Shown here: in pieces, positions 3,171 through 29,640 of the stretch
Layout of the letters: every line of letters begins with the position of its first letter
Position numbering within the stretch: position 1 is the stretch's first letter
The notes under the pieces: model-generated
What the model was told of the DNA's origin: nothing
What the model saw: only the letters and a program-made list of their open reading frames with translations
Databases searched by the model: none
Program-made: the position numbers and the translations under genes
From: Protonemura montana
Taxonomy: Eukaryota > Arthropoda > Insecta > Plecoptera > Nemouridae
Direction of reading: 5' to 3'
DNA length: 64,000 bases
Assembly (NCBI GenBank): GCA_947568835.1
Contig: OX387609.1
Span: 14,191,708 to 14,255,707, forward strand

Positions 3171-4410
3171 GGCCACCGCTTAGTCTTGTCTCTTTCACAC
3201 ACTGTGTTGTCTGCTCCTGTCCAACAGCACCAAGGACCGGCCACCGCTTAGCCTTGTCCCTTTGACACACTGTGTTGTCTGCTCCTGTCCAACAGCACCA
3301 AGGACCGGCCACCGCTTAGCCTTGTCCCTTTGACACACTGTGTTGTCTGCTCCTGTCCAACAGCACCAAGGACCGGCCACCGCTTAGCCTTGTCACTTTG
3401 ACACACTGTGCTGGCTGCTCCTGTCCAACAACACCAAGGACCGGCCACCGCTTAGCCTTGTCACTTTGACACACTGTGTTGGCTGCTCCTGTCCAACAGC
3501 ACCAAGGACCGGCCACCGCTTAGCCTTGTCACTTTGACACACTGTGTTGACTGCTCCTGTCCAACAGCACCAAGGACCGGCCACCGCTTAGCCTTGTCTC
3601 TTTGATACACTGTGTTGGCTGCTCCTGTCCAACAGCACCAAGAACCGGCCACCGCTTAGCCTTGTCTCTTTGACACACTGTGTTGGCTGCTCCTGTCCAA
3701 CAGCATCAAGGACCGGCCACCGCTTAGCCTTGTCACTTTGACACACTGTGTTGGCTGCTCCTGTCCAACAGCACCAAGGACCGGCCACCGCTTAGCCTTG
3801 TCACTTTGACACACTGTGTTGGCTGCTCCTGTCCAACAGCACCAAGAACCGGCCACCGCTTAGCCTTGTCACTTTGACACACTGTGTTGGCTGCTCCTGT
3901 CCAACAGCACCAAGGACCGGCCACCGCTTAGCCTTGTCACTTTGACACACTGTGTTGGCTGCTCCTGTCTAACAGCACCAAGGACCGGCCACCGCTTAGC
4001 CTTGTCACTTTGACACACTGTGTTGGCTGCTCCTGTCCAACAGCACCAAGGACCGGCCACCGCTTAGCCTTGTCACTTTGACACACTGTGTTGGCTGCTC
4101 CTGTCCAACAGCACCAAGGACCGGCCACCGCTTAGCCTTGTCCCTTTGACACACTGTGTTGGCTGCTCCTGTCCAACAGCACCAAGGACCGGCCACCGCT
4201 TAGCCTTGTCACTTTGACACACTGTGTTGGCTGCTCCTGTCCAACAGCACCAAGGACCGGCCACCGCTTAGCCTTGTCCCTTTGACACACTGTGTTGGCT
4301 GCTCCTGTCCAACAGCACCAAGGACCGGTCACCGCTTAGCCTTGTCACTTTGACACACTGTGTTGGCTGCTCCTGTCCAACAGCACCAAGGACCGGCCAC
4401 CGCTTAGCCT
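3171..4410. repeat. 68-bp minisatellite, about 18 copies (array 1)
   Basis: CCACCGCTTAGCCTTGTC recurs every 68 bp from 3173 to 4397. Copies are more than 90 percent alike, mostly varying at a few sites (TCACTTTG, TCCCTTTG or TCTCTTTG; GTTGTCTG or GTTGGCTG). The same unit forms a second array at about 27.8-28.7 kb. Part of the unit (CTCCTGTCxAAxAGCACCAAGG, then GGxxACCGxCTTA and a CCTTT block) matches the middle of the 5S-headed SINE. The overlapping 60-66 residue minus-strand ORFs are products of the periodicity, not genes. Confidence 0.95.
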
Positions 4411-4693
4411 GGCTGGCTTATGATGAAGCTAGCCTAGCATGGCAGGAAGCCGAGGATGAACCCGGGCCACATGACCTTGCCCTTGAAGTTTTTTTTTCTT
4501 CGGGGCTCACCGAACTAAGTCGTGTCTTGCCGAGTATTACCGAGTTCGTCCGAAACTTGCCGAGTCGTTCATCGGTGAATCACGTGACTTTGTCGCCTCA
4601 CTCTGGCTGTCACAGTGAAGAGTTGAGAGGGCAGTGGCGTGCCGCACGGCTTTTTTGTTGGTTCAGAGTTGATTAATACACTCTACGTTTGTA

Positions 4694-4982
4694 GCGCTGG
4701 CAGAGTTGCTAGAGCTGGCAGAGTCGCTAGAGTTGGCAGAGTCGCTAGAGTTGGCAGAGTCGCTAGAGCTGGCAGAGTTGCTAGAGTTGGCAGAGTCGCT
4801 AGAGTTGGCAGAGTCGCTAGAGTTGGCAGAGTCGCTAGAGTTGGCAGAGTCGCTAGAGTTGGCAGAGTCGCTAGAGCTGGCAGAGTTGCTAGAGCTGGCA
4901 GAGTCGCTAGAGCTGGCAGAGTTGCTAGAGCTGGCAGAGTTGCTAGAGTTGGCAGAGTCGCTAGAGCTGGCAGAGTTGCTGA
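4694..4982. repeat. 18-bp minisatellite, about 16 copies
   Basis: The unit is GCTAGAGTTGGCAGAGTC with T/C changes. Because 18 is a multiple of three, it keeps long ORFs open in more than one frame (RVARVG and LELAES repeats). That is expected from the unit and is not evidence of a protein. Confidence 0.95.
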
Positions 4983-5818
4983 AAGTTTTGCTTGGCTTCC
5001 TTTAATTTAATTTAAATTTTTAACGGCATTAATTCTGCTGATGTACAACACGTTGCCTTATAGAGGGTTTTTGAAGCTTTATAAAACTAGAATCACAGAC
5101 TTGATAGTGACATTGTCTTTTGCAGTCAAGATAAGTTTATGACGGGCAATTTCGTAAACTTCTTCAACTAGAATGAGAATCAGGTTCTTCTGGTTTCTAG
5201 AAGCATTTTTTTATGTTCTGACAAATGAAAAGTATAAACATTTGCAGTATTTCTATGAGAAACAGCTTAATGGCAATTAATTTGCTCTCAAATATCGATA
5301 TTTTGAAAAATGCAAACAAATTGTTTGATATCACAGAAAGTGCGAGAATACGGGTATTTTTAACAATGTGTCAAATTTAAAATATCATGTTTTGTGACAT
5401 GGAAATTCGAACAATTTACAAATAAATTAAACCATGTTCAATTTTGGTCTCCAATACTCAGTTGAAATTAAATCCCTCTTTGCAGTATTTGATCGAATAT
5501 TGAGATAAAACAAATACGAAAATAAAAAACTTATTTCCTGTGACAAATCATTAAATTATCAGCAAAATACTTCTTTTATCTTTGTTTATCATAACATATC
5601 AATAACTCGCTCAGCTCCAAGTAAAACCGGTCTTAAACCCTAACCAAAAGTCAAGGTCAAACCATATTTGGCCTTGATAAAATCAGCCATCTTTGATTCA
5701 TTCAATAAAAACTCGTTCCGCCACTGGTCAAAACCAAAACACTTTGCAAAACTCGTAATGAGACGTTCAGTGCATTACGCCACTGGATCAGAGCGCCCCG
5801 AACAAGAGCGGTGTAACG

Positions 5819-5869
<51 letters not shown>

Positions 5870-6516
5870 ACCAACACCCACCCCTCATCGGGGCAAAGAA
5901 AGTGTCAACTCACCTTCAAATCACGTGCGGTCACGCAAACTTAACGAAGCGAACGCGCGAGAAACAAAAGAAACTTTCGTGAAACATACTTTATGTTTTT
6001 CTTTATAATGAATGAGAGCAAACATTTGTAAGTCACGGCGATTACGATTATCATTTGGGACAAATTTTACGCGCCCGACGATAGTTTTATTTGTTATTTT
6101 TCTTGTGTTAATTATGAATAATTATGATTTCTTTTTAGCGTCGTTTTGTTTTGGTTTCCACGTGACTTTTGTGTTCTCGTTTGTTTGTTGCTTGAATGTA
6201 AAGGAAGTGGCGAGGTGTGTTTGGGACAAAGCGTCGAGGTGGCCGTGCCTGAGAGAAAGATCTCCGTGTAGCCGTGTTTCTCTGACAAAACCTGAACACT
6301 TGTCAACTAATGAGCCGTGTATTCTTGAGCGACTCTTCGTTGTTATGCAAATCTCGGGTGACGTTTGCTCGAGGACTTGAGTTCGGTTCCCATTTCATTT
6401 GTCAAACTGTGACCTGCATTCGGTTGACTCGTGCACTTCAGGATCGAGCGTTTAGAAATAGAATTGTTATTGTGATTTAAATTTTTTACCTAATTATGTT
6501 TGCTTTTTTGTTGCAG
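4983..6516. other. AT-rich interval with a 51-base poly-C run
   Basis: No supported gene. The notable object is an uninterrupted run of 51 C at 5819-5869, which creates a spurious polyproline ORF. The DNA downstream is AT-rich and ends in a pyrimidine tract leading into the candidate splice acceptor at 6515-6516. Confidence 0.7.
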
Positions 6517-6550
6517 AATGGATTCTTTGGTCGCCTGCAACTAAGAAAAG
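6517..6550 (+). other. Candidate 34-nt microexon
   Basis: A pyrimidine-rich acceptor (TGCTTTTTTGTTGCAG, ending at 6516) is followed by 34 nt and a near-perfect donor, AAAAG|GTAAGT, at 6551. Two of three frames are open; one reads NGFFGRLQLRK plus one extra base. It would join in phase to the candidate exon at 43469-43509 (34 + 41 = 75 nt). The splice signals are seen directly. That it is an exon is inference, and no protein family is recognised. Confidence 0.35.
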
Positions 6551-6685
6551 GTAAGTTCTTTGTCACCAAAATATATTTTGCATATTTGTCAGATTTTTAA
6601 ATCTCCCCTTAGATGTAAACCAAATTAAGTCTTGCTTCGGCTTAAAATAAAATACAGATATTAAAATATTAAACCAGCTCAGAAG

Positions 6686-7744
6686 CTCCTTTGCGTGGAG
6701 CGAAACAAGCGCCCTGTCACGGAATGTCCAGCACAGAGGCGACGGCGAATGTCCGCTCCTTTGCGTGGAGCGAAACAAGCAGCCTGTCACGGAATGTCCA
6801 GCACAGAGGCGACGGCGAGTGTCCGCTCCTTTGCGTGGAGCGAAACAAGCACCCTGTCACGGAATGTCCTGCACAGAGGCGACGGCGAGTGTCCGCTCCT
6901 TTGCGTGGAGCGAAACAAGCACCCTGTCACGGAATGTACAGCTCAGAGGCGACGGCGAGTGTCCGCTCCTTTGCATGGAGCGAAACATGCGCCCTGTCAC
7001 GGAATGTACAGCTCAGAGGCGACGGCGAGTGTCCGCTCCTTTGCATGGAGCGAAACATGCGCCCTGTCACGGAATGTCCAGCACAGAGGCGACGGCGAGT
7101 GACCGCTCCTTTGCGTGGAGCGAAACAAGCACCCTGTCACGGAATGTCCAGCACAGAGGCGACGGCGAGTGTCCGCTCCTTTGCGTGGAGCGAAACAAGC
7201 GCCCTGTCACGGAATGTCCAGCACAGAGGCGACGGCGAGTGTCCGCTCCTTTGCGTGGAGCGAAACAAGCATCCTGTCACGGAATGTCCAGCACAGAGGC
7301 GACGGCGAGTGTCAACTCCTTTGCGTGGAGCGAAACAAGCAGCCTGTCACGGAATGTCTAGCACAGAGGCGACGGCGAGTGTCCGCTCCTTTGCGTGGAG
7401 CGAAACAAGCGCCCTGTCACGGAATGTCCAGCACAGAGGCGACGGCGAGTGTCCGCTCCTTTGCGTGGAGCGAAACAAGCACCCTGTCACGGAATGTCCA
7501 GCACAGAGGCGACGGCGAGTGTCCGCTCCTTTGCGTGGAGCGAAACAAGCGCCCTGTCACGGAATGTCCAGCACAGAGGCGACGGCGAGTGTCCGCTCCT
7601 TTGCGTGGAGTGAAACAAGCTCCCTGTCACGGGATGTCCAGCACAGAGGCGACGGCGAGTGTCCACTCCTTTGCGTGGAGCGAAACAAGCACCCTGTCAC
7701 GGAATGTCCAGCACAGAGGCGACGGCGAGTGCCCGCTCCTTTGC
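6686..7744. repeat. 70-bp minisatellite, about 15 copies
   Basis: CTCCTTTGCGTGGAGCGAAA recurs every 70 bp from about 6686. Copies are nearly identical, with changes concentrated at CAAGCGCC/CAAGCACC/CAAGCAGC. A 210-bp super-period (three units) reopens reading frames, which explains the 361-residue plus-strand ORF across the array. A shorter GxGGAxCxAAACAxGC motif is found singly near 2285, 11800 and 33870, which suggests the unit came from a dispersed element. Confidence 0.95.
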
Positions 7745-9812
7745 TAAAATCGTATAAAAACGCTATAAACATTTGATCTCATGGTTTATGGGTGTGTTTA
7801 TTGCATTGGTATCATCACTGCGCCATTGAGTGAAAAGTATTGCAAGATACATTATATTTGTTGTATTGGGACTCAAAAATATCCGATAACCGCCACCAGG
7901 GACCGCTAGCGTGCGTGTCCGTCACTCGAGGCAATTAAAGCGCGGGACATTTGATATTGACAGCTCACTGCAACCCGATCAAGCACTTTGAGGTGATTAC
8001 AGATGGCATCGAGTCTCTTTTTGCTTTGGCGTGTCAAAAACCAATTTAAGGGGGGAGGGGGGGGGGGGGGGGGAGGGTGGGATGGTGGGGGGGGGGGGGG
8101 GGGGGGGGGTGGGAGGGGGGGGGGAGATATACTGACTGGTGCACGCTGTCAAAGTAGAAACACATTTGTCGGGGCTTAAATTTATCTGTTTTTGAGCTGT
8201 TGAGGGATTTTTTTTGGAAAAACCTTTATAACTGTTTTTTTTTGGTTAAAGACATGCTGGCTGTCAGGAATGGTTGGGTGATGATGAGGATGATGATACT
8301 TAGGCTTATGTAGATGTTAGGGTGAATCCGGTGCCGGTTACGTGTTGGTGCGATATCTTTTATGACCATTTCGTTGACAAAAGGGTACGAGTGGAAAAAT
8401 TAGAGGGACATAACATAAGTTTTTATGTTTAAAATTAATATTTTGGATCATTTTGTGCATTTTTAACAATTTTCGTTATTTTGATCTCATTTAATTTCGT
8501 AAAAATATGAAATTCTGACATTTTGGTGTAACTGCGAAACTGTGCTCCATAACGTTGCCAACTTCCCACACTCGCCGTCATAATACCAACCTCGAAAAGC
8601 CACCAGCTAGTCTTCAAACCTGACGACCCCCGCACCCGTCGGCCCCCCCAGAGAACCACCCCATCGACGGCGTCCCCGGAGGCGTCGAACCAGCTCCGAT
8701 CCCAACTCAGCGAGGTGTCGGCATGGAAAATCTCCTTTGCACTCGGCGACATCAGAGTGCCCTTCAAAGGAACCGCTCGCCATTCACGCAACGGGACCGA
8801 CAAAGAGAGTGCCATCCGAGCTGGCAAAGGTGCAAGAGAGATGAAGATAGGTTGTTCCCGACGGGGTGGTAGTTATGGAGATATCATCTAAATAGTTGAA
8901 CGAGTGCCGGGGTGTTATAAAAAGGGAATTAGACATGAGGGTGCCAGAGGCGACGGCGTCGAGGGGTCGCCGTCAGTGCGAGAGTCGTTCGGCCGGCACA
9001 AATTTCATTTTTGGATTATGTTTTTGAATTGATGACGTGGATTGGGGTTCGATGTGTTTTTGAATCGAGAAGCGTTTACTTTTGGCGCGTGTCGTTAGGA
9101 TTAGGTGTGTGTGGTGTTCTTGATTGGTGCTTTGAGGTTGGTGTTTGTTGCTACGAGTTGGCTTCAGTCTGCAAATGGACTAAGCTTTGGTATTCGCCGA
9201 AGATTTAGCAAACAGAGAATGACTTTCAGCATTGAAATCGGTCCTAAAATTGAATCGAGGATCAAGAATATGATAAAAGAGACTAAAGACACAGAATTGT
9301 ATGAATTTTTCATATGTATGTCACCAAGATAAGCTTATATATCTTTCACTTATGGCATCTCCCATGAGTAGATATGTTTTATGTATCTCGATCACTTATG
9401 GATATGGAATACTTATACTTACTTTTATGATAAATGCGGCGACCACTTATGGTCATATATGTGTCATGCTTGTATTCCAAGTAGAATATTTTACACTTTT
9501 ATTCTAAGTTACTAACATTACACACTTCCTATGCCGATTTTAAGATCACAGCTGTTTTATCTTTTAATGTTTAATCACTTTGGGATCCCACGTCGCGAAA
9601 CTGGAATATGTGTGCCAGGATAGCCCAGTTGCTAGAGCACCCGATCGGCAATTGGTTCCGGGTTTGTACTCCAGTTAGGTTAACCTTTTTCCAGTCATAG
9701 CTTCCTTTTAATCATTCGCTTGCTGGTTTTAGCTTCCTAGAAGAAACACTAGAAAAACCAAAAACACTGTAATTTTTTTAGTTACACTCACCCCGCCATG
9801 TTTGACATCTGA
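7745..9812. other. Intergenic or intronic interval, G-rich tract and SINE relic
   Basis: No convincing gene. 8050-8124 is almost all G. 8270-8350 is a weak relic of the SINE (GATGATGAGGATGATGAT followed by CCGGTGCCGG). 8560-8970 is CpG- and GC-rich; all three forward frames and one reverse frame stay open there, so the 130-residue minus-strand ORF at 8435-8827 has little weight. A tRNA-like motif (TAGCCCAGTTGCTAGAGC) lies near 9628. Confidence 0.5.
8050..8124. repeat. Poly-G/G-quadruplex-prone tract
   Basis: About 75 bases are nearly all G, broken by isolated A and T residues. It has many runs of four or more G on the plus strand and could fold into G-quadruplexes. Exact length in such a run may carry sequencing or assembly error. 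Confidence 0.85.
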
Positions 9813-9824
9813 TTTTAAGGTTAT
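9813..9824. repeat. Target-site duplication, left copy
   Basis: TTTTAAGGTTAT, identical to 10448-10459, immediately flanks the SINE. Confidence 0.85.
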
Positions 9825-10447
9825 TATTATTATTATTTGTGGTTTTATACGACGCACTGTTTTGACAACTGGCCCTGCGGCACTGGTCTAATGGCGTCTG
9901 TGAATGAGTGGATGATGATGAGGATGATGATGAACCTAACATAGCCTAGAAGGGAGGAGGGGAAACCCGGTGCCGGCACGTAGCCTACTCCTGTCGAAGA
10001 GCACCAAGGGGACCACCGGCTTAACGTCCCTTCCGAAAGATGGTACAACGCGAACAACAGGATTCCTCCACAAATCCATACTGTCGAGAGGTCGATAAGC
10101 AAGGCGAATGAAGTTGCTGTACTAACTTTCATCCCTCTAACCTCTCTCCCGAACAGAACTGGTCATGTGTATGATGGCCACCCATACAATACCTAACCCA
10201 GCACAGTGTTGCTTAACTTTCATCCCTCCAACCTCTCTCCCGAACAGAACTGGTCATGTGTATGATAGTCTCCCATCCAATACCTGATCCAGCGCAGTGT
10301 TGCTTAACTTTCATCCCTCCAACCTCTCTCCCGAACAGAACTGGTCATGTGTATAATGGTCACCCATTCAATACCTGACCCAGCGCGTGTTGCTTAACTT
10401 CGGTGATCTAACGAGAACCGGTGTTTCCAACACGACAAACCGTTCGG
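9825..10447 (-). mobile_element. 5S-headed SINE, full length, with 12-bp TSD
   Basis: Read on the minus strand, the element starts with a 5S rRNA-like head (GAAACACCGG-like block, AGTTAAGCAA, GGTATTGxATGGGTGACC). It continues with three 91-bp units that repeat the 3' half of the head, a linker (CTTGCTTATCGACCTCTCG type), a body with a TCCTTCGGAAGGGACG-type stem, and ends in an A/T-rich (TAA)n tail. A perfect 12-bp duplication, TTTTAAGGTTAT, flanks it at 9813-9824 and 10448-10459. This is direct evidence of insertion by target-primed retroposition. A SINE needs a partner LINE; none is identified here. Confidence 0.9.
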
Positions 10448-10459
10448 TTTTAAGGTTAT
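10448..10459. repeat. Target-site duplication, right copy
   Basis: TTTTAAGGTTAT, the partner of 9813-9824. It is followed by a short GGTTATGGATGTTA-type tandem repeat to about 10508. Confidence 0.85.
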
Positions 10460-12437: not shown

Positions 12438-12463
12438 AGATATATGGTATTTTAATGTTTACA

Positions 12464-13740: not shown

Positions 13741-13744
13741 TTGA

Positions 13745-14452
13745 TTGATTTATATGGTGTTTAACGACGCACTGTTTTGACATCTGGCCATGCTGCACTG
13801 GTCTAATGACGTCGGTGAATGAGCAGATGATGGAAAGGATGATGATGTGCCTAACTTAGCCTAGAAGGAAGGAAAGCAAACTCGGTGCCGGCTTGTAGCC
13901 TACTCCAGTCGAAGACCAAGGGGACCACTGGCGTAACGTCCCTTCCGAAGGACGGTACAACGCGAACAACGGGATTCCTCCAAAAATCCATGCTGTCGAG
14001 AGGTTGATAAGCAAGGCGAGTGAAGTTGCTGTACTAACTTTCATCCCTCCAACCTCTCTCCCGAACAGAACTGGTCATGTGTATGATGGTCATCCATCCA
14101 ATACCTGACCCAGCGCAGTGTTGCTTAACTTTCATCCGTCCAACCTCTCTCCCGAACAGAACTGGTAATGTGTATGATGGTCGCCCATCCAATAACTGAC
14201 CCAGCGCAGTGTTGCTTAACTTTCTTCCCTCCAACCTCTCTCCCGGACAGAACTGGTCATGTGTGTGATGGTCACCAATCCAATACCTGACCCACCGCAG
14301 TGTTGCTTAACTTTCTTCCCTCCAACCTCTCTCCCAAACAGAACTGGTCATGTATATGACGGTCACCCATCCAATACCTGACCCAGCGCAGCTTTGCTTA
14401 ACTTCGGTGATCTCATGAGAACCGGTATTTCCAACATGGCAAACCGTTCGGT
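13745..14452 (-). mobile_element. 5S-headed SINE, four VNTR units
   Basis: Same architecture as 9825-10447, with the 5S-like head at the right end (CCGAACGG... reading leftward) and the tail at the left (TGATTTATATGGTG). It has four copies of the 91-bp unit marked by GAACAGAACTGGT. No clear target-site duplication was found. The body keeps a 62-residue minus-strand ORF beginning MKVSTATSLALLINLSTAW. Confidence 0.88.
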
Positions 14453-14714
14453 GTTTTCTCTTCTTAAGCTCGATGGATGACGTTACCGTTGTAATATAGA
14501 CAAAGTGATGTGCAAAATGTAGGGAGGGGCGGAGGGGGAAGGGGTAGGGGGGTGCAAACAGACCGATATACATATTCATGTCGCGTGACGTCATATGGTC
14601 ACGTGGGCCGTGGCAGACACCCTCGACGGTGGAGGGTGGTGACTGACTACTTTGGGATATGGGCACCAAGGTTGAGTGGTCTTGGTGGCATTGATCTGAC
14701 TACGATTTGGTCTT

Positions 14715-15697
14715 CGATCTCCACTATTCTACCTGTGTAACCCACTGGTCTGTACACACTTGCGTGGATAGCGCATCCCGTGGACTGGTTTCCAAGCCAG
14801 TGGGGTCTTCGATCTCCCCTACTCTACCTGTGTAACCCACTGGTTTGTACATACTTGTATGGATAGCGCATCCCGTGGACTGGTTTCCAAGCCAGTGGGG
14901 TCTTCGATCTCCCCTATTCTACCTGTGTAACCCATTGGTCTGTACACACTTGCGTGGATAGCGCATCCCGTGGACTGGTTTCCAAGCCAGTGGGGTCTTC
15001 GATCTCCCCTATTCTACCTGTGTAACCCACTGGTCTGTACACACTTGCGTGGATAGCGCATTCCGTGGACTGGTTACCAAGCCAGTGGGGTCTTCGATCT
15101 CCCCTATTCTACCTGTGTAACCCACTGGTCTGTACACACTTGCGTGGATAGCGCATTCCGTGGACTGGTTACCAAGCCAGTGGGGTCTTCGATCTTCCCT
15201 ATTCTACCTGTGTAACCCACTGGTTTGTACACACTTGCGTGGATAGCGCATTCCGTGGACTGGTTTCTAAGCCAGTGGGGTCTTTGATCTCCCCTATTCT
15301 ACCTGTGTAACCCACTGGTCTGTACACACTTGTGTGGATAGCGCATCCTGTGGACTGGTTACCAAGCCAGTGGGGTCTTCGATCTCCCCTATTCTACCTG
15401 TGTAACCCACTGGTCTGTACACACTTGCATGGATAGCGCATCCCATGGACTGGTTTCCAAGCCAGTGGGGTCTTTGATCTCCCCTATTCTAACTGTGTAA
15501 CCCACTGGTCTGTACACACTTGCATGGATAGCGCATCCCGTGGACTGGTTTCCAAGCCAGTGGGGTCTTCGATCTCCCCTATTCTACCTGTGTAACCCAC
15601 TGGTCTGTACACACTTGCGTGGATATCGCATCCCGTGGACTCGTTTCCAAGCCAGTGTGGTCTTCGATCTCCCCTATTCTACCTTTGTAACCCACTA
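14715..15697. repeat. 95-bp minisatellite, about 10 copies
   Basis: The TCTGTACACACTTGCGTGG segment starts near 14749, 14844 and 14939 and onward at 95-bp spacing. Each unit carries CACTGG and CCAGTG arms (ACTGGTTTCCAAGCCAGT is a small hairpin), so single-stranded copies would form regular stem-loops. The unit is not recognised. Confidence 0.93.
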
Positions 15698-17210: not shown

Positions 17211-17219
17211 GTCTCTCAA

Positions 17220-18026
17220 TTTATTGATTGATTTGATGTGTTTAACGACGCACTGTTTTGACATCTGGCCATGCGGCACTGATCTAATGGCGTCGGTGAA
17301 TGAGTGTATGATGATGAGGATAAAACTGAATCTAACCTAGCCTAGAAGGGAGAAGAGGAAACCCGGTGCCGGCACGTAGCCTACTCCTGTCGAAGACCAA
17401 GGGGACCACCGGCTTAACGTCCCTTCCGAAGGACGGTACAACGCGAACAACAGGATTCCTCCACAAATCCATGCTGTCGAGAGGTTGATAAGCAAGGCGA
17501 ATGAAGTTGCTGTACTAACTTTCATCCCTCCAACCTCTCTCCCGAACAGAACTGGTCATGTGTATGATGGTCACCCATCCAATACCTGACCCAGCGCAGT
17601 GTTGCTTAACTTTCATCCCTCCAACCTCTCTCCCGAACATAACTGGTCATGTGTATGATGGTTACCCATCCAATACCTGACCCAGCACAGTGTTGCTTAA
17701 CTTCCATCCCTCCAACCTCTCTCCCAAACAGAACTGGTCATGTGTATGATGGTCACCCATCCAATACCTGACGCAGCGCAGTGTTGCTTAACTTTCATCC
17801 CTCCAACCTCTCTCCCGAACAGAACTGGTCATGTGTATGATGGTCACCTATCCAATACCTGACCCAGCGCAGTGTTGCTTAACTTTCATCCCTCCAACCT
17901 CTCTTCCCAACAGAACTAGTCATGTGTATGATAGTCACCCATCCAATACCTGACCCAGCGCAGTGTTGCTTAACCCCGATGATCTCACAAGGACCGGTGT
18001 TTCCAACACGCCAAACCGTTCGGTTT
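17220..18026 (-). mobile_element. 5S-headed SINE, five VNTR units, 9-bp TSD
   Basis: This is the longest SINE copy in the window. The left tail is TTATTGATTGATTTGATG and the right end is the 5S-like head ending AAACCGTTCGG. Five 91-bp units separate head and body. GTCTCTCAA occurs directly outside both ends (17211-17219 and 18027-18035), a plausible 9-bp target-site duplication. The unit count differs from other copies (3, 4 or 5), like the VNTR of composite retroposons. Confidence 0.88.
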
Positions 18027-18479: not shown

Positions 18480-19057
18480 CAGCAACTTGCCTTGCTTGTC
18501 AACCTCTCGACAGCAACTTCACTCGCCTTGCTTATCAACCTCTCGACAGCAACTTCACTCGCCTTGCTTATCAACCTCTCGACAGCAACTTCACTCGACT
18601 TGCTTATCAACCTCTCGACAGCAACTTCACTCGCCTTGCTTATCAACCTCTCGACAGCAACTTTACTCGCCTTGCTTATCAACCTCTCGTCAGCAACTTC
18701 ACTCGCCTTGCTTATCAACCTCTCGACAGTAACTTCACTCGCCTTGCTTGTCAACCTCTCGACAGCAACTTCACTCGCATTGCTTATCAACCTCTTGACA
18801 GCAACTTCACTTGCCTTGCTTATCAACCTCTCGACAGCAACTTCACTCGCCTTGCTTATCAACCTCTCGACAGCAACTTCACTCGCCTTGCTTATCAACC
18901 TCTCGACAGCAACTTCACTCGCCTTGCTTATCAACCTCTCGACAGCAACTTCACTTGCCTTGCTTATCAACCTCTCGTCATCAACTTCACTCGCCTTGCT
19001 TATCGACCTCTCGACAGGAACTTCACTCGCCTTGCTTATCAACCTCTCGACAGCATG
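18480..19057. repeat. 36-bp minisatellite derived from the SINE linker, about 16 copies
   Basis: The unit (TCACTCGCCTTGCTTATCAA plus CCTCTCGACAGCAACT) is exactly the linker segment found once in each full SINE, and the array runs without a break into SINE body at 19058. Because 36 is a multiple of three, it extends the SINE ORF in frame to 233 residues on the plus strand (NLSTATSLALLI repeated) and also keeps a 187-residue minus-strand ORF open. A protein product is not supported; the repeat origin is clear. Confidence 0.93.
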
Positions 19058-19260
19058 GATTTGTGGAGGAATCCTGTTGTTCGAGTTGTACCGTCCTTCG
19101 GAAGGGACGTTAAGCCGATGGTCCCCTTGGTGCTCTTCGACGGGAGTAGGCTACGTGCCGGCACCGGGTTTCTACTCCTCCTTTCTAGTCTAGGTTAGGT
19201 TTATCATCATTCTATCATTCACAGAAGGAATTAGGTCAGTGCCGTATGGTCCGTTTTCAA
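19058..19260 (+). mobile_element. SINE body and tail, 5' part replaced by the 36-bp array
   Basis: From AGCATGGATTTGTGGAGG to CAGTGCCGTATGGTCC this matches the body of the other SINEs, in plus orientation. The 5S head and 91-bp units are absent. The tail after CATTCTATCATTCACAG is shortened. Confidence 0.85.
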
Positions 19261-19265
19261 AACAA

Positions 19266-21927
19266 TGCATCTTTATACACAGCAAATCAATCTTTTAAAT
19301 TCAGTGTGAATTTATCACATCATTTTGAGAGCAATAAAAAAGAAAATCAGTCAACTTTGAATCTAAATTCATTTTTCTTCGGCTTTTCTGGCCACAAATT
19401 TGCGCAACCTAACCCCTTTCAACCAAAACCACGTGACCACATCCATGTTAAAACAAAAGCATTTGACACACCGCACCGCCCCCTGAATGCCTCGGCGTTC
19501 CGTCGAGCCAAACCACGGGCCGGTATAAAATGAAGATTTATGCAGTGTTTTAGATTTATAGGTGGCGGTGATTTGAACCTATGTAGCCGTGGTTTTCCCC
19601 TTTGCCCGCCGCGAGAGCTAGCGTCGTTGACAAGATGGTGATATACAGAAGGCAGTGCATTTACCCTTTCAGTATGCGATACAGTACATGGGCGTTAAGG
19701 TTGCTTGAAAGCAAATTATGTTTTAAATATTTATATATATCCATGCATAGATATTTAATATTTATATTCAACTCGTTTTATTTTAAAATTTTTGATGTTT
19801 GTTTTATGGACAGTATTTTTAATTATCAGCTCTAATTTAATTGGTATTTTATGATGATGGGGTGGATTATGGATATATGTATTTGTAAAATATCTCGTAG
19901 CTTTAGTCGTACATCTTTTATGTCATACGTTTACCTCTTTTTAAGCATACAATAATAAGTTAGGTAAGAAAAATTGCAACATTTCAGAGTTATTTTAATT
20001 TTACATCAAAAATTCAAAATATTTATAAGTAAATTGAATAATTGACATCTATATTTTTAATTAGATGCATGTTTAGGATGTCTAGACAAGGTAATTGTTT
20101 ATATTATTGTCATTTTTTTATTGAAGAAATGTCACAGATACAAACAGGCAAAAGTTAGGAAAAGTTGGGAAAGTTAGTTGCTTCTTTACTTAGCATCCAA
20201 AACTCAGTTGTAACTAGTTATTATCAAAACTAGTGCTAAAGTTAGATTAAGTAGACATCAGTCAAAATATTAAAAAAAGACGTTTTTTTGCTGTCGCTCT
20301 TTGGATAAGATTTGGTTTCCATATCCGTTAAATCTGGTATCTGTAAGTTTCCATATCAAAGTTATGCTAAACTTGGCTAAAAGCATTTAGTTAAATATCA
20401 ACTTAGTTAAGCTGGCAATATACTAATAAACTATATTGATTGAAAGTTCAGTTAAGTTAAATTAAGCCCGTTAAGTTCTTAACAAACCGTTAACAAACAA
20501 AAAACATCTTATTGACTGTTGCTAGCAATTAACAGATAACCGAACTGTTAATTACTTAACGAGCTGTTAGTAAACAACTCTGACAAAGAATTGCAAGTGA
20601 CGTTTATAAGGCTGTGACGTTTGGAAGGCTGTGACGTTTGGAAGGCTGTGACTTGATCTCACGCCGTGTGTACTGTACATGGATCTACGCACGGGTAATC
20701 CACAAGGCAGTGGGTCTACACTTTATGCACAGCCGACTGGATATTTATGTGACTTCGGGTGGCAGTGGTGGTGGAAAAAGAGAGAGTGTGGCCAGGAAAT
20801 TTTCCGAGGTTTTCCCGAGGTTTTTCCAATGTTTTACGCACTTCCCGATACAGATTTGTTTAAACTGAGTTATGAAGGTGTGCGTGAGGGGTGGGGGAGG
20901 ATTTAGGGTCGTGGTTTCGATTTTGCTGGAAGGGTTTCGAGTAAGGGTTGCTTTTGGTCAATTGGTGAAGGGATGGTCAGTTTTGAGAAAGTTATCGGTT
21001 TCGTTGGGGGTGGTTTGTAATTTGTTCAGCAAATACAAATCGAGCTGCTCGAAAAGTAATGTTTTGTGTACAAAATGACGGAATTTTGTTCTAATTCCCT
21101 AAGATTGAACAAAATTTAAGAAAAATAGGAAATTTTTTAAAAATATTTTTCTTTGAAGAAAGTGTCACAACAGTAAGACTATTATCGTATCATCTGAATA
21201 AAACGAAGTTGAGTGCCGAGATTTAAGCGGCACGTTAAGTCACTAACAGACTGTTAACAAACATTTTTGATTGGCTGATACCAAGCAAATAAAAAATTAA
21301 CAGACTATTAATTATTTTACAGACCGATGAAAAGCCGGCTCATAATTGCAAGAAGATATTTGCACGGTTCCAAATTAGGTGATCACTCAAGTTTACAGGA
21401 TCTAAATGTAAAAAAAAAACAGCAGACATTTTATCTAGATGATAACGCTGCATAAATATGCTGCTAAAACTGATATCAAAAATATTTCCATATCATATTC
21501 TCAGCTTTATCCACTCAAACCTCAAACAACTCTTGCAGACTCAGGTGGTTTTTATTTTTAAACAACAGCCCGTGCCCCATGGACGCATCGTAACAAAACA
21601 CAAACACAGCCTGCGCCTATTTCTGTGACTCATCCCCCCCCCCCCTCGCTCTAATTAGAGTGGATTAATTACCACCAGCACGCAATTAGCTCGGCGGCGT
21701 GGATGCACCTGGGTGTGAAGCCAGCACCTCCAGAGGATTGTCTCGGGTGGCACGATATGGTTTTTAGAAGCTACACCCTGGTGCTGAATCCATCATGCAA
21801 TGCCATGACCAGGTCGGCGAGGTGTGGTGGTCATGGTGCTTCGTGGTGCTTCGTGGGGCTATATACTGCTGTCAAGGGGACATGACTCCTAGATCACTTC
21901 AAACTTTGAAAGATATTTGGATATTTT
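19266..21927. other. AT-rich interval, TTAAC-rich patches
   Basis: No supported gene. There is a tRNA-like B box (minus-strand AGGTTCAAATCACC, about 19570-19585, with TAGCTCTCGCGGCGGGC upstream). A fragment of the Penelope-like end lies at about 20165-20265. Three GGCTGTGACGTTTGGAA repeats lie at about 20590-20650. Two TTAAC-rich patches lie at 20440-20600 and 21230-21350, both followed by AATTGCAAG. A C run lies at about 21636-21646. Confidence 0.5.
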
Positions 21928-22430: not shown

Positions 22431-22439
22431 AGATATTTA

Positions 22440-22625: not shown

Positions 22626-22654
22626 GATTTTAAATTGACTTTTGGAAACATTGA

Positions 22655-22775
22655 TTTGTATTGATTTATTTGTGAGGCCACGTGGCACAGGTCTAATAGC
22701 GTCCATAAATGGGTGGGTAACGATGAGGATAATGATGAAACTAACATAGCCTAGAAGAGAAAAGGAGAGAAACAG
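22655..22775 (-). mobile_element. SINE tail fragment
   Basis: GCACAGGTCTAATAGCGTCC and ACATAGCCTAGAAG match the 3' tail of the 5S-headed SINE, but the rest of the element is missing. It is a truncated or decayed copy. Confidence 0.65.
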
Positions 22776-23134
22776 TGATGCCATAGAAACCGCTATGGAA
22801 CTTCTACGCAGCTTGGATCTGCCCAACGTTACAACTTATTGATAATTAAGTTCTTAAATCTTCATTTAAAAATTCATTGTCTTAATGCCAGAAAGAACCT
22901 GATTTAAATGTTGCTACGTTTTAGAACATTAAAGTGCTTTTATAAAAATCCTTACCCGTTTTTACTTTCTAGCAACAGTGCACGAACTCTTTGACCCTAG
23001 TTTAGATCCTTGTGGTACGCCTAGTTCGTAAAAATCACTGCTATGAAAGAATACTACGCAACTGGTACAGTTTGTGGGTCAAATTCCGTGATTAAATCTT
23101 TTCTGTGAACACTTTTAATGCCTTTTTATTATTA

Positions 23135-23260
23135 TGAACACTATAACCGTCTCAAAAATGTATGCCCAAACGGGGACCCGTTTGGGTCCCCAAATACCCA
23201 GCGCATTGCAAGCGTTTGCAATTTTAATAAGATTTCATCTAAAAACTTTTAATGCCCCTT
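23135..23260. mobile_element. Palindromic tRNA-like element fragment
   Basis: It shares ACTATAACCGTCTCAAAAA, GATGCCCAAACGGGG-type and GCGCATTGCAAGCGTTTGCA blocks with the copies at 49.8 and 50.6 kb. The core is reduced to a short hairpin, GGGGACCCGTTTGGGTCCCC. Confidence 0.6.
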
Positions 23261-23974
23261 GGTCCTCAGCTTTTAGAATACTTGCTTAATCTTTTTGTCA
23301 GTGTAAACTCTCGGATAGTAGTGTACCTTTTGAACTTAAATGCGTTTAATAATACAACTTAGACTAACCATATCATGTTTAGGAGCGAATTCAAATACTT
23401 TCAAATACACGTTGAGTGACTTCCTTTTCTATTTGAAATATTCACACCAACGTTCACCGTAAACACATCCAGCCTAAAACCTTGCCGACAACAAAACCAT
23501 AATGAAACATATCAACAAAACTGAACACAACAATAGGGTGCACCACATGTCCCGGTCATGCAGCAACCCAACAAGACCAAACGCCCTCCCTCCTGACCAA
23601 ACACGTTGCCGAAACGCCGAAAAGATTCCCTGCTCCCGTTACCAACGCGACCGCCATTCCAATTCCTGTGACATCATTTACCACAACAACGTTTCTATCC
23701 CAACAACATAAAACTCTGCTTCTCGTTTGTTCGGAAACACGGTTTTCGTATTGTCCGGTTTTCCGGCGGCCGGTGAAAAGCGTGGAAAACGCGGGAAATG
23801 TGTTGTCACACTTGTGTACATGGGACTGTGGTGATGGCAGCGTTCCCTTGTGGTCAGCTGTTATGAACGCTCGGTTCGGGGCCGACAGTCGTGTAATTCA
23901 AATATTTAAACGATATTCGGAGTTTTTTTTTTCGTGGGTGTTTTGTGACGGGAAATTAAATATAACTGCGGGGG

Positions 23975-24625
23975 TCGAAAAAGTTAAGCAATATTGCGCT
24001 CGGTCAGGTATTGGATGGGTGATCATCATACACACGACCAGTTCTGTTCGGGAGAGAGGATGGAGGGATGAAAGTTAAGCAACACTGCGCTAGGTCAGGT
24101 ATTGGATGGGCGACCATCACACACATGACCAGTTCTGTTCGGGAGAGAGGTTGGAGGGATGAAAGTTCAGCAACACTGCGCTGGGTCAGGTATTGGATGG
24201 GTGATCATCATACACACGACCAGTTCTGTTCGGGAGAGAGGTTGGAGGGATGAAAGTTAAGCAACACTGCGCTAGGTCAGGTATTGGATGGGCGACCATC
24301 ACACACATGACCAGTTCTGTTCGGGAGAGAGGTTGGAGGGATGAAAGTTAGTACAGCAACTTCACTCGCCTTGCTTATCAACCTCTCGACAGCATGGATT
24401 TGTAGAGGAATCCTGTTGTTCGCATTGTACCGTTCTTCGGAAGGAACGTTAAGCTGGTGGTCCCCTTGGTGCTCTTCGACAAGAGTAGGCTACGTGCCGG
24501 CACCGGGTTTCCCCTCCTCCCTTCTAGTCTACGTTAGTTTCATCTTCATCATCATCCAATTATTTACTGACGCCATTAGACTAGTGCCACACGACCAGAT
24601 GTCAAAACAGTGCCTCCTTTAAAAC
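23975..24625 (+). mobile_element. 5S-headed SINE, plus orientation, four VNTR units
   Basis: AAGTTAAGCA at 23981 begins a run of 91-bp units (starts near 23983, 24074 and 24165, then one more), then the linker, body and tail ending CAAAACAGTGCCTCC. The outermost 5S-like block (GAAACACCGG) is missing, so the head is truncated. The body ORF (MKVSTATSLALLINLSTAW, 93 residues, 24341-24622) is intact. Confidence 0.88.
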
Positions 24626-25600
24626 AATTATCAAAGAATATATATTAAAATATTTCTCCCAAATAAAAAAAATATTTCAAGCGGTCGTAATTTGATGACA
24701 AAATAACTGATCTTTTCCGCAGTCTTCGATTGTTTTTGACCAGCACCAAGAAGCTGATCTTACCTGTTTACGTCAGCTTTCAAATTGATTCAACGCAATG
24801 ATAGCGTCCAAGTCAAGGTCTTGAATGACTTTTGTGACAAGAATTCGACCAAATAAATTTGAATCATTTTTTTTGCCCCCTCCCAGCATTCTCAATTATC
24901 TTGTCTGCTTTCGAGCGAGTGGAATGCACCGAGTGCAGTGCATTGCGTGCACCAGCAACTGCAGTTATGTGCACTTGAATGCATCGCAATGTGCATCGCG
25001 TGCATGCAAGCGAGAGCGAGACAATGCATTTCATTGTATTACAATGCAGAAAGTGCATTCTTTGGGAGGTTTGCACCCAAAAAAATGCAGGTTGCATTCA
25101 CATCTTTTGTTTTTTGGTGCAGTGAGGAATTTTTTAAACGTATGTGGCACGTGTTTCGGGATGTGGATGGATTTTTAGAATTTGTTGAGTTATTTTTGAA
25201 CTGACCGTTGATTTTCTAATCCAATTCGTCCTCTTTGCATTGAGCTGAACTTTTCGTTGGATGCAACATTTCGAAAAGCATGCATTACAGTTAATCAAGT
25301 ATTCAGTATTTAGCTTATTTTATGAAGAATCTTGAAGAATATACTTGAGTTCAATGCAATTTTAAATGCAATTTAAATCATTTTAATTTTTATTTAATTT
25401 TAAATTGAAATTGAAATTTGCAATTTTGTTGTTTTGAATGTAAAATGTATTCAAAATGTTACTGTTTTCAGAATCAATTCTATAATTCTACGTTTTTACC
25501 TAAAAACCAAATTTTTATTTCTTAAAATGATAAAGAAAGCTGTAGCAATCCTTATTTTCTTCAACTTCGCCACCAAACAAAACTAAGGTTATGAACTATG
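24626..25600. other. Unannotated interval, TGCA-rich
   Basis: No supported gene. From about 24920 to 25100 the sequence is dense in TGCAT/ATGCA motifs (for example GTGCATCGCGTGCATGCAAG). This leaves frames open on both strands but shows no known domain. Confidence 0.4.
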
Positions 25601-25604
25601 CGTC

Positions 25605-25860
25605 TGTCAGTCACCCATCCAATACCTGACCCAGCGCAGTGTTGCTTAACTTCTGTGATCTCACGAGGACCGGTGTTTCCAACACGCCAAACCGTTCGGT
25701 GGTCACCCATCCAATACCTGACCCAGCGCAGTGTTGCTTAACTTTCATCCCTCCAACCTCTTTCCCGAACAGAACTGGTCATGTGTATGATGGTCACCCA
25801 TCCAATACCTGACCCAGCGCAGTGTTGCTTAACTTCGGTGTTTCTGACACGCTAAATCGT
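25605..25860 (-). mobile_element. Isolated 5S-like heads, three units
   Basis: Three 5S-like units in minus orientation (one with its full GAAACACCGG-like 5' block, one followed by the CCAACCTCTTTCCCGAACAG spacer) stand without any SINE body or tail. It is either a 5'-only fragment or a small tandem array like 29140-29640. Confidence 0.8.
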
Positions 25861-25990
25861 TGACTATGTAAATAAAATATATGAAACAAAAGAAATTAAA
25901 GTCCGAACAGCTTTTTAAGTCCAACTTTTAGGGTTTCTTCTCTGAAAAATGTTTTTACTATAAATTAGTGTAATGGAAGACGAGCATTCA

Positions 25991-27115
25991 GTAAAGCAGC
26001 ATTCACCGAAGCAAGTATTACCAACTCAAACACAAGCAAAGCAGCATTCACCTAAGCAAGTATTACCAACTCTAGCACAAGCAAAGCAGCATTCACCGAA
26101 GCAAGTATTACCAACTCTAGCACAAGCAAAGCAGCATTCACCTAAGAAAGTATTACCAACTTATACACAAGTAAAGCAGCATTCACCGAAGCAAGTATTA
26201 CCAACTCTAGCACAAGCAAAGCAGCATTCACCGAAGCAAGTATTACCAACTCTAGCACAAGTAAAGCAGCATTCACCTAAGCAAGTATTACCAACTCTAG
26301 CACAAGCAAAGCAGCATTCACCTAAGCAAGTATTACCAACTCTAGCACAAGCAAAGCAGCATTTACCGAAGCAAGTATTACCAACTCTAGCACAAGTAAA
26401 GCAGCATTCACCTAAGCAAGTATTACCAACTTAAACACAAGTAAAGCAGCATTCACCGAAGCAAGTATTACCAACTTAAACACAAGTAAAGCAGCATTCA
26501 CCTAAGCAAGTATTACCAACTCTAGCACAAGCAAAGCAGCATTCACCAAAGCAAGTATTACCAACTCTAGCACAAGTAAAGCAGCATTCACCGAAGCAAG
26601 TATTACCAACTCTAGCACAAGCAAAGCAGCATTCACCTAAGCAAGTATTACCAACTTAAACACAAGTAAAGCAGCATTCACCGAAGCAAGTATTACCAAC
26701 TTAAACACAAGTAAAGCAGCATTCACCGAAGCAAGTATTACCAACTTAAACACAAGTAAAGCAGCATTCACCTAAGCAAGTATTACCAACTCTAGCACAA
26801 GCAAAGCAGCATTCACCAAAGCAAGTATTACCAACTCTAGCACAAGTAAAGCAGCATTCACCTAAGCAAGTATTACCAACTCTAGCACAAGTAAAGCAGC
26901 ATTCACCTAAGCAAGTATTACCAACTCTAGCACAAGTAAAGCAGCATTCACCTAAGCAAGTATTACCAACTCTAGCACAAGTAAAGCAGCATTCACCTAA
27001 GCAAGTATTACCAACTCTAGCACAAGTAAAGCAGCATTCACCTAAGCAAGTATTACCAACTTAAACACAAGTAAAGCAGCATTCACCTAAGCAAGTATTA
27101 CCAACTTAAACACAA
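25991..27115. repeat. 45-bp minisatellite, 25 copies
   Basis: The unit GTAAAGCAGCATTCACCxAA plus GCAAGTATTACCAACTCTAG and CACAA repeats for 1,125 bp, exactly 25 units. The first units read KQHSPKQVLPTLAQA in frame from an ATG at 25973 (153 residues). From 26431 many copies carry a TCTAGC to TTAAAC change, giving in-frame stops. The recurring stop variants argue against a coding role now. Confidence 0.95.
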
Positions 27116-27739
27116 ACAAACGGCAACTCAGATCTTCACAGCCGAACAGAAGCCGAATCAAGTAGCAATGTTTATGACGTAAGAAACATACTCAGCTGTC
27201 TTCGCCGATCGAACACACGGCTAGTTTATCGACGCAATGTAACCAAAGACAGGCGATCGCCCATTGTTCAACATCACGTGGGTGGCAATCGACGCCGAGC
27301 AAAACTCGACCTAAATGCACACGTGAATATCTGAACAATAAAGGTCAGAATCCTCCATCATGATGCGCCTTTTACAGAGGAAATATTTCCATTTGTGGTC
27401 GCTGTGTGTTTTTGCCTTTTTTTTGGCGCGTTTCATTGAATTCCTTGCAGCGTATGGAGCGGTCGGACTTGAGTGATTTACGACTAGATGTGGTCGCCGG
27501 GAAAAAAAAATCAGATGGAAAAAATAAAACGCGTTGTGTGTTTGTTGCAAAGGGGGTCGTTGGGGGAAGGGGGAGTGGAAAAAGGAAAATAGTTTTCCGA
27601 GTTGGGAAAAGCGAACGCGAAGCAGTGCCCTGGTGGTGGCAAGTGGAATGATTTGCGTTCTTTTTTTTTTTAAGTCTTCTCGTTTCAATTTGTGTCAATT
27701 TTGTGTGTGTGATATTAGTGCAAAGCCATTTGTCGAAAT
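27116..27739. other. Unannotated interval
   Basis: No supported gene. A CCTTGCAG acceptor-like site at 27441-27448 precedes an open frame (27406-27651) rich in Lys/Arg/Gly. No donor or family match makes it convincing. Confidence 0.35.
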
Positions 27740-27810
27740 AAAGCTAGCCTTGCTTGGCAGAGAGCTTAGAGTGAACCCGGTGCCGGCACGTAGCCTGTTC
27801 TGTCTAACAG
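27740..27810 (-). mobile_element. SINE middle fragment joined to a satellite
   Basis: ACCCGGTGCCGGCACGTAGC at 27776-27795 is identical to the SINE middle (as at 30338-30357), but the next bases pass directly into the first 68-bp unit. It is the physical junction between SINE sequence and satellite. Confidence 0.8.
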
Positions 27811-28709
27811 CACCAAGGACCGGCCACCGCTTAGCCTTGTCCCTGTGACACACTGTGTTGGCTGCTTCTGTCCAACAGCACCAAGGACTGGCCACCGCTT
27901 AGCCTTGTCGCTTTGACACACTGTGTTGGCTGCTCCTTTCCAACAGCATCAAGGACCGGCCACCGCTTAGCCTTGTCTCTTTGACACACTGTGTTGGCTG
28001 CTCCTGTCCAACAGCACCTAGGACCGACCACCGCTAAGCCTTGCCCCTTTGACACACTGTGTTGTCTGCTCCTGCCCAACAGCACTAAGGACTGGCCACC
28101 GCTTAGCCTTGTCTCTTTGACACACTGTGTTGGCAGCTTCTGTCCAACAGCACTAAGGACCGGCCACCGCTTAGCCTTGTCACTTTGACACACTGTGTTG
28201 GCAGCTTCTGTCCAACAGCACCAAGGACTGGCCACCGCTTAGCCTTGTCGCTTTGACACATTGTGTTGGCTGCTCCTGTCCAACAGCACCAAGGACCGGC
28301 CACCGCTTAGCCTTGTCACTTTGACACACTGTGTTGGCTGCTCCTGTCCAACAGCACCAAGGACCGGCCACCGCTTAGCCTTGTCACTTTGACACACTGT
28401 GTTGGCTGCTCCTGTCCAACAGCACCAAGGACCGGCCACCGCTTAGCCATGTCACTTTGACACACTGTGTTGGCTGCTCCTGTCCAACAGCACCAAGGAC
28501 CAGCCACCGCTTAGCCTTGTCACTTTGACACACTGTGTTGGCTGCTCCTGTCCAACAGCACCAAGGACCGGCCTCCGCTTAGCCTTGTCCCTTTGACACA
28601 CTGTGTTGGCTGCTCCTGTCCAACAGCACCAAGGACCGGCTACCGCTTAGCCTTGTCACTTTGACACACTGTGTTGGCTGCTCTTGTCCAACAGCACCAA
28701 GGACCGACC
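27811..28709. repeat. 68-bp minisatellite, about 13 copies (array 2)
   Basis: Same unit as 3171-4410, again about 68-bp spacing, with slightly more divergence in the first copies (CTGCCCAACAGCACTAAGG, CTGCTTCTGTCC) and more uniform later copies. The left end continues from SINE sequence. Minus-strand ORFs of 63-134 residues are by-products. Confidence 0.95.
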
Positions 28710-29139
28710 GCCTATTTAGAACAATTCCCTTTTTCCAAAAAAAGTAAAATGTTTTTCACTAAAAATGTATCGTGCACTAGCACCCAAACCAAATGCACCA
28801 AACCTAACGGCATCTAAAACACGTCAACTCTTCGCTGTCCCAATTCCAGGGCTACCATAATGACCAGTGTAATGATGCCGTTAAGACCTGGCCAATGGCC
28901 GTCTGCCCAAATCGAGCCATGCGCCTGTCAAATAAGAAAAGAAGCTGCCATCGTCTCAGACCACACGGTCCGTAAGACGCAGCCTTCTTTGACGGTTACC
29001 GCCGTCTTGCGTTTCTTTGTGTTTCTTAGCTGTCGTGCCGCACGGCGATATTTTATAACTGCACCAAAATGCGAGCGTAATTGGGTTCGAAGTTGGTTTT
29101 GGGAGGTTTTGTGTCCTTTGCAAGGGATATGGGTAACTA
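28710..29139. other. Unannotated interval
   Basis: No supported gene; the 122-residue forward ORF and 90-residue reverse ORF overlap each other and run into the 5S-like array. Confidence 0.4.
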
Positions 29140-29640
29140 CCGAGCTGTTTGGTGTGTTGGAAACACCGGTCCTCGTGAGATCACAGAAGTTTAGCAACAC
29201 TGCGCTGGGTCAGGTATTGGATGGGTGACCACCGAACGGTTTGGCGTGTTGGAAACACCGGTCCTCGTGAGATCACTGAAGTTAAGCAACACTGCACTGG
29301 GTCAGGTATTGGATGGGTGACCACCGAACGGTTTGGCGTGTTGGAAACACCGGTCCTCGTGAGATCACCGAAGTTAAGCAACACTGCGCTGGGTCAGGTA
29401 TTGGATGGGTGACCACTGAACGGTTTGGCGTGTTGGAAACACCGGTCCTCGTGAGATCACTGAAGTTAAGCAACACTGCACTGGGTCAGGTATTGGATGG
29501 ATGACCACCGAACGGTTTGGCGTGTTGGAAACACCGGTCCTCGTGAGATCACCGGAGTTAAGCAACACTGCCCAGGGTCACGTATTGAATGGGGGACCAT
29601 ACTTATGATCGGTTCTGTTGGGGAGAAAGGTTGGAGGGTC
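29140..29640 (+). repeat. 92-bp 5S-like tandem array, about 5 copies
   Basis: AGTTAAGCAACACTG-type blocks start near 29189 (here GTTTAGCAAC), 29281, 29373, 29465 and 29557, an exact 92-bp period. Each unit reads GAAACACCGGTCCTCGTGAG, GATCACxGAAGTTAAGCAAC, then GGGTCAGGTATTGGATGG and GTGACC. This matches the internal part of animal 5S rRNA, including the regions of box A and box C of the 5S internal promoter. The first roughly 18 and last roughly 30 nt of a real 5S gene are replaced, so these are 5S-derived units, not normal 5S rRNA genes. No SINE body follows. Confidence 0.85.

Follow-up and report, generated by a model that had tools for sequence, protein, structure and literature searches.

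Tandem arrays apparently seeded by a 5S-type SINE and a relative in the genome of Protonemura montana

Short interspersed elements (SINEs) can give rise to tandem repeats. In squamate reptiles, SINE-derived satellites (sSats) from the tRNA-related elements Squam1-3 reach up to 1000 units per locus, according to PMC10702118, which also refers to dimeric SINEs and to short duplications inside SINEs. For the SVA and LAVA elements, PMC4432496 proposes that microhomology drives the expansion and contraction of arrays at the DNA level. Here we describe tandem arrays in 64,000 nucleotides of the plecopteran insect Protonemura montana (contig OX387609.1, our C12, positions 14191708-14255707; this whole stretch is "the window"), and their relatives elsewhere in the assembly (258.5 Mb searched, in 34 contigs). 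SINE-derived arrays are 13 of the 31 arrays in the window with a period of at least 15 bp. On balance, we favor the view that a SINE, SINE-A, and its relative SINE-B seed these arrays. For SINE-A, segments would be duplicated, some of the duplicated forms would retropose, and the arrays would then grow locally.

In its own sense, SINE-A consists of a head that corresponds to nucleotides (nt) 1-48 of 5S ribosomal RNA (rRNA), n 91-bp units, a linker, a body of ~250 nt, and the 3' end TGCGTCGTTAAACACCACAAATAATAAT. Each 91-bp unit contains 5S nt 49-97 and ~42 nt of other sequence. Copies of SINE-A share the 3' end TGCGTCGTTAAACA, followed by an A/T-rich tail. The window contains nine hits to the 5S family (RF00001 in Rfam) above the gathering score, and ARAGORN found no tRNA genes in it. 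Judging by its sequence, the head appears to be derived from 5S rRNA, as in the SINE3 class, with a putative type 1 internal promoter for RNA polymerase III (Pol III). The 5S boxes A, IE, and C presumably lie within nt 50-97. Also as in the SINE3 class, target-site duplications are found around some full-length copies, and a central domain like that of Deu-SINEs is possible.

The commonest array in the window repeats the 91-bp unit, with its putative 5S promoter region. A preliminary description of the window named three types of array (36, 92, and 68 bp) and omitted this one. Nine SINE-A copies each contain 3-5 of the units, which are 93-100% identical to the SINE consensus. (Tandem Repeats Finder, or TRF, starts these nine arrays at 10123, 14035, 17516, 23980, 30492, 42302, 44349, 55543, and 57511, each within a SINE-A copy.) Six of the copies, all on the minus strand, have a head, units, and a body: w10k (9826-10448; three units, and a tail), w14k (13755-14452; four units; also matched by our genome-wide pattern), w17k (17221-18024; five units), w30k (30233-30818; three units; an internal deletion in the body; a 5S hit of 64.1 bits), w42k (42024-42630; three units), and w44k (44070-44675; three units). 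On the same strand, w57k (57288-57826) has a truncated head, three units, and a body with a large deletion. Two copies have four units and a body without the head, at 23981-24625 (plus strand) and 55258-55902 (minus strand). A fragment at 25610-25835 (minus strand) mixes 91- and 92-bp units and has no body. Across the genome, 935, 225, 180, and 116 SINE-A copies have 1, 2, 3, and 4 units, counted as exact border patterns at the right distance, with some places (such as C4:922547) in two classes. In unexpanded SINE-A, direct repeats of AAGTTA lie 91 bp apart, and these match the borders of the 91-bp arrays.

Several copies with multiple units have target-site duplications. Mismatched pairs of flanks, our null, scored 9 at most, and five of the 20 copies tested scored 9-15: w10k (ATAACCTTAAAA), w17k (TTGAGAGAC), w30k (TAAACCATTCGT), w44k (GGGAATCATA, within a locally repetitive flank), and the fetched locus L021. 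All five have a head with 3 or 5 units, and they are five of the eight head-bearing copies with 3-5 units. The other 15 copies tested, many of which are truncated, scored below these five. By eye, we also saw AATACATGAATA on both sides of L026, which has one unit and a truncated head.

The variants within the arrays are mostly private to one unit. The fetched loci and the window contain 13 arrays with at least 3 units. In five of these, no variant is common to two or more units of the same array; in six, one variant is; and in two, many are. These last two are L009 (15 units) and the window array at 23981, in which a two-unit block is repeated (units 1 and 3, and units 2 and 4, have variants in common). 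In the other 11 arrays, 97 variants are confined to one unit and 6 are in more. The mean distance between units is 0.062 within a locus (31 pairs); between loci it is 0.039 for last units, 0.058 for middle units, and 0.093 for first units (7 loci). Target-site duplications flank five of the eight head-bearing copies with 3-5 units, and units have no more than one variant in common in 11 of the 13 arrays, so the insertion probably brought the array with it. In most copies, the 91-bp array was probably present at insertion, with later local growth in some.

The array in L009 (at 3802-5171 of that locus) has a SINE head but no match to the SINE body after it. Separately, we considered the variant A22 as a subfamily marker. 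A22 is present in 26 of 38 one-unit copies among the genome-wide pattern matches listed (by eye, mostly in mid-C1). In the fetched loci and the window, the last unit has A22 in 4 of 5 two-unit arrays and in none of the 13 with n≥3, and only 4 of 16 single units have it. Given these mixed results, we set A22 aside as support.

The 36-bp array in the window (18485-19055, 15.9 copies in TRF) repeats the linker of the SINE, as the preliminary description had proposed. Its pieces are 93-100% identical to the SINE-A linker consensus, and it enters the SINE body at ~19014. (The whole copy is at 18481-19287 on the plus strand, and the 5' part of the SINE is absent.) ACAGCA is found at both ends of the unexpanded linker, 36 bp apart, and the array repeats exactly that segment. 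There are 1275 exact linker-linker junctions in the genome. We compared the window array with eight further loci, all fetched, from 40 scored of 73 candidates; these nine loci are a small and biased sample of the genome total. The body follows the array in seven of the eight further loci, and the stretch from L028 ends inside the array. Including the window, all eight loci with an observable 3' side enter the body: seven reach the tail, and L031 was fetched only into the body. The 5' ends vary. A head with two 91-bp units is present in L035 and part of a unit in L030, and L033 starts from the final part of a unit. L028, L029, L031, and the window copy begin in the linker, and the 5' ends of L032 and L034 are beyond the fetched stretch. 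Each array has its own variants, and whole blocks are repeated in L031 and L032, which implies that the 36-bp arrays changed locally.

The 92-bp array in the window was described as the 5S head, and our results agree. Its unit is 5S nt 1-92, which takes in the head and the initial 44-45 nt of a 91-bp unit. TRF places this array at 29129-29599 on the plus strand (5.1 copies). The SINE match continues to 29638, where the final copy continues as a diverged 91-bp unit without a body. Rfam's 5S model matches 29323-29439 and 29508-29623 within it. At the junction, 5S nt 92 is joined to the first base of the SINE with just 1 bp of shared sequence, unlike in the 36- and 91-bp types. Our sample of this type is ten fetched loci with 11 arrays, and five of the 11 (L040, L041, the plus strand of L043, L044, and L045) are followed by 91-bp units and/or the body. 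So the association of arrays with SINEs, which the preliminary description expected elsewhere in the genome, is seen for both the 36-bp and the 92-bp types. Of the 40 places that were scored for the 92-bp type (from 1532 candidates), 25 are on C12:10.6-16.2 Mb or C5:17.7-18.9 Mb. Also, in L015, from the grid sample discussed below, both 91- and 92-bp units precede a body that has a large deletion.

We propose that the arrays form in three steps. First, the segment between two 6-bp direct repeats (AAGTTA for the 91-bp type and ACAGCA for the 36-bp type) would be duplicated by slippage or by unequal exchange. In favor of this, the array borders match these repeats at exactly 36 and 91 bp, and just 0.19% of the 38,415 possible duplications of a single-unit SINE have a direct repeat of at least 6 bp. 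The 92-bp type, which joins the 5' end of the SINE to 5S nt 92, looks more like a template jump by reverse transcriptase. Second, some of the duplicated forms would still retropose. The 91-bp copies with 3-5 units would be inherited through RNA and would insert as arrays, with target-site duplications, and each retroposed unit would hold a putative 5S-type internal control region. Third, after insertion, arrays towards the chromosome ends would grow by ordinary local exchange. Local growth can be seen from the repeated blocks in L009, L031, L032, and the window array at 23981. The largest arrays are the 15 units of 91 bp in L009 and a 2.3-kb stretch of 36-bp junctions (C1:31.600-31.602 Mb). 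We also considered the insertion of arrays as whole circles, which we rejected because the copy numbers are not whole numbers (by eye).

Several observations, in this paragraph and the next two, count against our proposal. Three head-bearing copies with 3-4 units (w14k, w42k, and w57k) have no target-site duplication above the null; in w42k, the flank repeat CCCAAAC is only at the 95th percentile of the null. The one-unit copy L017 has none above the null, either. Among the five 36-bp loci with both ends, the full-length L035 scored 7, which is the 95th percentile of the null, and the 5'-truncated loci have no target-site duplication. No clear variants by unit position are common to many loci of the 91-bp type, and the star-like pattern of its units is also compatible with a burst of growth soon after insertion. 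Of the 11 92-bp arrays, six (L036, L037, L038, L039, L042, and the minus strand of L043) stop inside a unit, without a body, and retroposition does not explain these. Finally, the unexpanded SINE has 21 direct repeats of 6-7 nt. Because only two of these bound the arrays that we studied, a direct repeat alone is not decisive.

Alternatively, all of the arrays might have grown in place, after the insertion of ordinary SINEs with one unit, because of high recombination near chromosome ends. None would have retroposed as an array, and SINEs would be hit because they are common there. We consider this unlikely, yet it has more in its favor than the other alternatives. The end bias of expanded copies and of 36-bp junctions was measured on one chromosome, C1, where the pattern list is complete for each unit-number class. 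There, 34 of 37 copies with n≥2 are within 5 Mb of a chromosome end, versus 30 of 68 one-unit copies (p = 7.7e-7). C1 also has 64 exact 36-bp junctions in seven clusters, four of which are single junctions, and all are at 31.1-32.7 of 33.1 Mb. The last 2.02 Mb of C1 (a border set by the data) contains all seven of these clusters, versus 12 of 105 SINE-A copies with 1-4 units (p = 1.4e-6). Arrays on C1 have a subtelomeric preference, as judged by distance to the contig end, and recombination might be the reason. Among the matches listed, the SINE-A junctions themselves are denser near chromosome ends. Also, in a grid sample of 19 loci (10 kb each, 190 kb in all), loci farther from the chromosome end contain fewer array bases (rho = -0.53, p = 0.019). 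The block duplications in L009, L031, L032, and the window array at 23981 are clear and would be expected from growth in place. On the other hand, units share no more than one variant in 11 of the 13 arrays with n≥3, so each of these arrays would have had to grow early and then stop.

Less probable still, in our view, is that each type of array was born once or a few times and was spread among chromosome ends by ectopic exchange, or by insertion of array fragments, instead of by retroposition. The six 92-bp arrays that end inside a unit without a body fit this idea. So do the variants that are shared by the nine 36-bp arrays. The variant C13A was seen in 8 of these 9 loci, versus 0 of 21 single linkers and 15 of 3161 exact first linkers genome-wide. 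We rejected C13A as proof of a single ancestral array: the query for finding these loci contained a C13A unit and the search passes over words that are very common, so the loci were probably picked by C13A. (Several single linkers among the listed candidate matches of this query are C13A linkers.) With C13A removed, the nine arrays have 38 shared variant pairs, versus a mean of 16.1 under the null (p < 1/5000). With CpG transitions removed as well, there are 24 versus 9.3 (p = 0.0002). However, this null assumes equal rates across sites, and site 36 may be a hot spot, since several loci have changes there to each of the three other bases. And all eight observable 36-bp loci enter the body at the same border, with differing 5' ends and unrelated flanks, which fits retroposed copies rather than ectopic spread. 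Arrays unrelated to SINEs do occur at several loci. Families with periods of 41, 70, 95, and 114 bp are each found at two or three loci. In these and a non-SINE family of 92 bp, arrays are 93-98% identical between loci and the flanks are mostly unrelated. (They are at 1423-2185, 6685-7744, 14709-15696, 37659-38676, and 58343-58711 in the window and in L004, L007, L009, L015, L026, and L027.) Where flanks could be compared between loci, we found no match next to the arrays, and the two places in the window with the non-SINE 92-bp family share only a 39-bp stretch, on one side. So, there may be another way of spreading arrays.

The 68-bp arrays of the window, at 3171-4410 (18.2 copies) and 27800-28706 (13.3 copies; both minus strand, from TRF), were said to resemble the middle of the same SINE. 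The array at 27800 does run out of a SINE-like body: the junction at 27774-27818 (minus strand) is 89% identical to nt 120-165 of the SINE-A body. The element is SINE-B, though, and the unit joins its 3' end to the middle of the next body, with ~110 bp of the composite missing. Instead of one SINE, there are at least two related elements, with the 36-, 91-, and 92-bp arrays from SINE-A and the 68-bp arrays from SINE-B. The composite consensus of SINE-B is 67-78% identical to SINE-A copies over 119-163 nt, at 21 places. Body homology, together with a SINE-A-like tail at the window array at 3171, indicates that SINE-B is a relative of SINE-A.

We compared nine 68-bp arrays: L001 (which is the window array at 27800), L002-L008, and the window array at 3171. 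A SINE-A-related body is in the flanks of all nine. It lies directly 3' of the array in eight, which were selected with a query that began in the body. The junction from body to array is the same in L002-L008, which were chosen with a query that contained the junction. On the 3' side of the window array at 3171, there is only a diverged body with the SINE-A-like tail. A body is also 5' of the array in four of the nine (L002, L003, L005, and the window array at 3171), and in L006 it is shortened. In the window, this 5' segment (in the sense of the element) is at 4340-4465 on the minus strand. It is 75.8% identical to nt 67-188 of the SINE-B composite and overlaps the last units of the array.

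Some 68-bp arrays have exon-like frames beside or around them. These match aldo/keto reductase on both sides of L002 and GH18 on both sides of L006 (in each case, one side is below the cut-off), as well as protein kinase at L003. L008 has a weak match to PDZ, below the cut-off, and the frames at L007 had no match in Pfam. By eye, the array and SINE-B remnants seem to fill most of an intron in L002, L006, and L008, which recalls introners.

That the arrays are unrelated satellites with chance similarity to SINEs is extremely improbable: the match of the 68-bp unit to SINE-A covers only ~40 nt, but its local score of 40 compares to 29 for the best of 2000 shuffles, and for the 36-, 91-, and 92-bp types, this idea is already refuted by their identity to the consensus and the hits to Rfam's 5S model.

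More broadly, this genome generates and disperses minisatellites of various origins, particularly near chromosome ends, and SINEs are one traceable source. The grid sample contains 14 strong arrays (TRF score of at least 300), and 11 of these are not SINE-derived. The other three are in SINE-A, and each is of the 91-bp kind, versus 3.0% of non-array bases (p = 0.008, with the proviso that inheritance makes arrays non-independent). The 11 non-SINE arrays are no nearer to SINEs than shuffled positions are: just one is within 500 bp, which is below both of the shuffled means (24% and 38%). We rejected the idea that SINEs are a general magnet for arrays. The wider suggestion of the preliminary description, that the SINE is a repeated source of minisatellites, is borne out in that several segments, with different periods, became arrays. 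Independent births, locus by locus, are not borne out, since the 91-bp array seems to be inherited in retroposing copies and the 36-bp arrays share variants beyond the simple null. The suggestion is weakened further in that SINEs are not the sole source and that array content rises towards the chromosome ends whatever the unit. Heredity inside the element and chromosome position probably explain much of the apparent repeated birth of arrays.

The window has other low-complexity features as well. A 20-bp array with 87 copies is at 39713-41455, in a region of extreme AT skew (0.46 in 40001-42000). There is a pure run of 51 C at 5819-5869 and a G-rich tract at 8050-8124.

A single repeat family, in one assembly, spans several stages: the unexpanded SINE with its short direct repeat, copies that have 3-5 units along with target-site duplications, and long local arrays. 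Such a series allows tests of how direct repeats, template jumps, and chromosome position contribute to the origin of minisatellites, and of whether multiplying a Pol III promoter aids the spread of a SINE. Tentatively, SINE-A might carry its promoter region as a retroposing tandem array. If so, several putative control regions would travel along, the number of units would be heritable in SINE lineages, and linker and head arrays would be shed near chromosome ends.

These arrays resemble sSats, as described in PMC10702118, in several ways. The tandem repeats are from portions of SINEs, with different segments in different cases; here, the units of 36, 91, and 92 bp come from SINE-A and the unit of 68 bp from its relative. 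A longer terminal unit extends to the SINE end in sSats, and here, all eight observable 36-bp arrays continue into the body, but only 5 of 11 92-bp arrays are followed by SINE sequence. Both systems show subtelomeric preference and a spectrum from internally duplicated SINEs to satellite-like arrays. In contrast to the sSats in that account, the head here is 5S, arrays have formed from three segments of the same family within one genome, the arrays seen are short, and promoter-region arrays are found within copies that have target-site duplications. Like the SVA and LAVA composites with their variable number of tandem repeats (PMC4432496), SINE-A has a variable array inside a non-autonomous retroposing element, but the array is its own promoter region or linker instead of a GC-rich central domain. 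Text searches (top results, in open-licence literature) found no report of a 5S SINE with a multiplied promoter. In the monomers of the 5' untranslated region of mouse L1 (PMC9022269), an internal promoter at the 5' end of a retroposon is likewise repeated in tandem. There it is the promoter of an autonomous long interspersed element, and here it is the 5S-type Pol III region of a SINE, whose extra copies are putative promoters; by this analogy, SINE-A might be a Pol III counterpart of the L1 monomers. Repeats born from transposable elements are known elsewhere, and the SINE-derived arrays of P. montana are a rich variant of a known process. The new elements are that the SINE is of the 5S type, that several segments are involved, and that the multiplied promoter probably retroposes.

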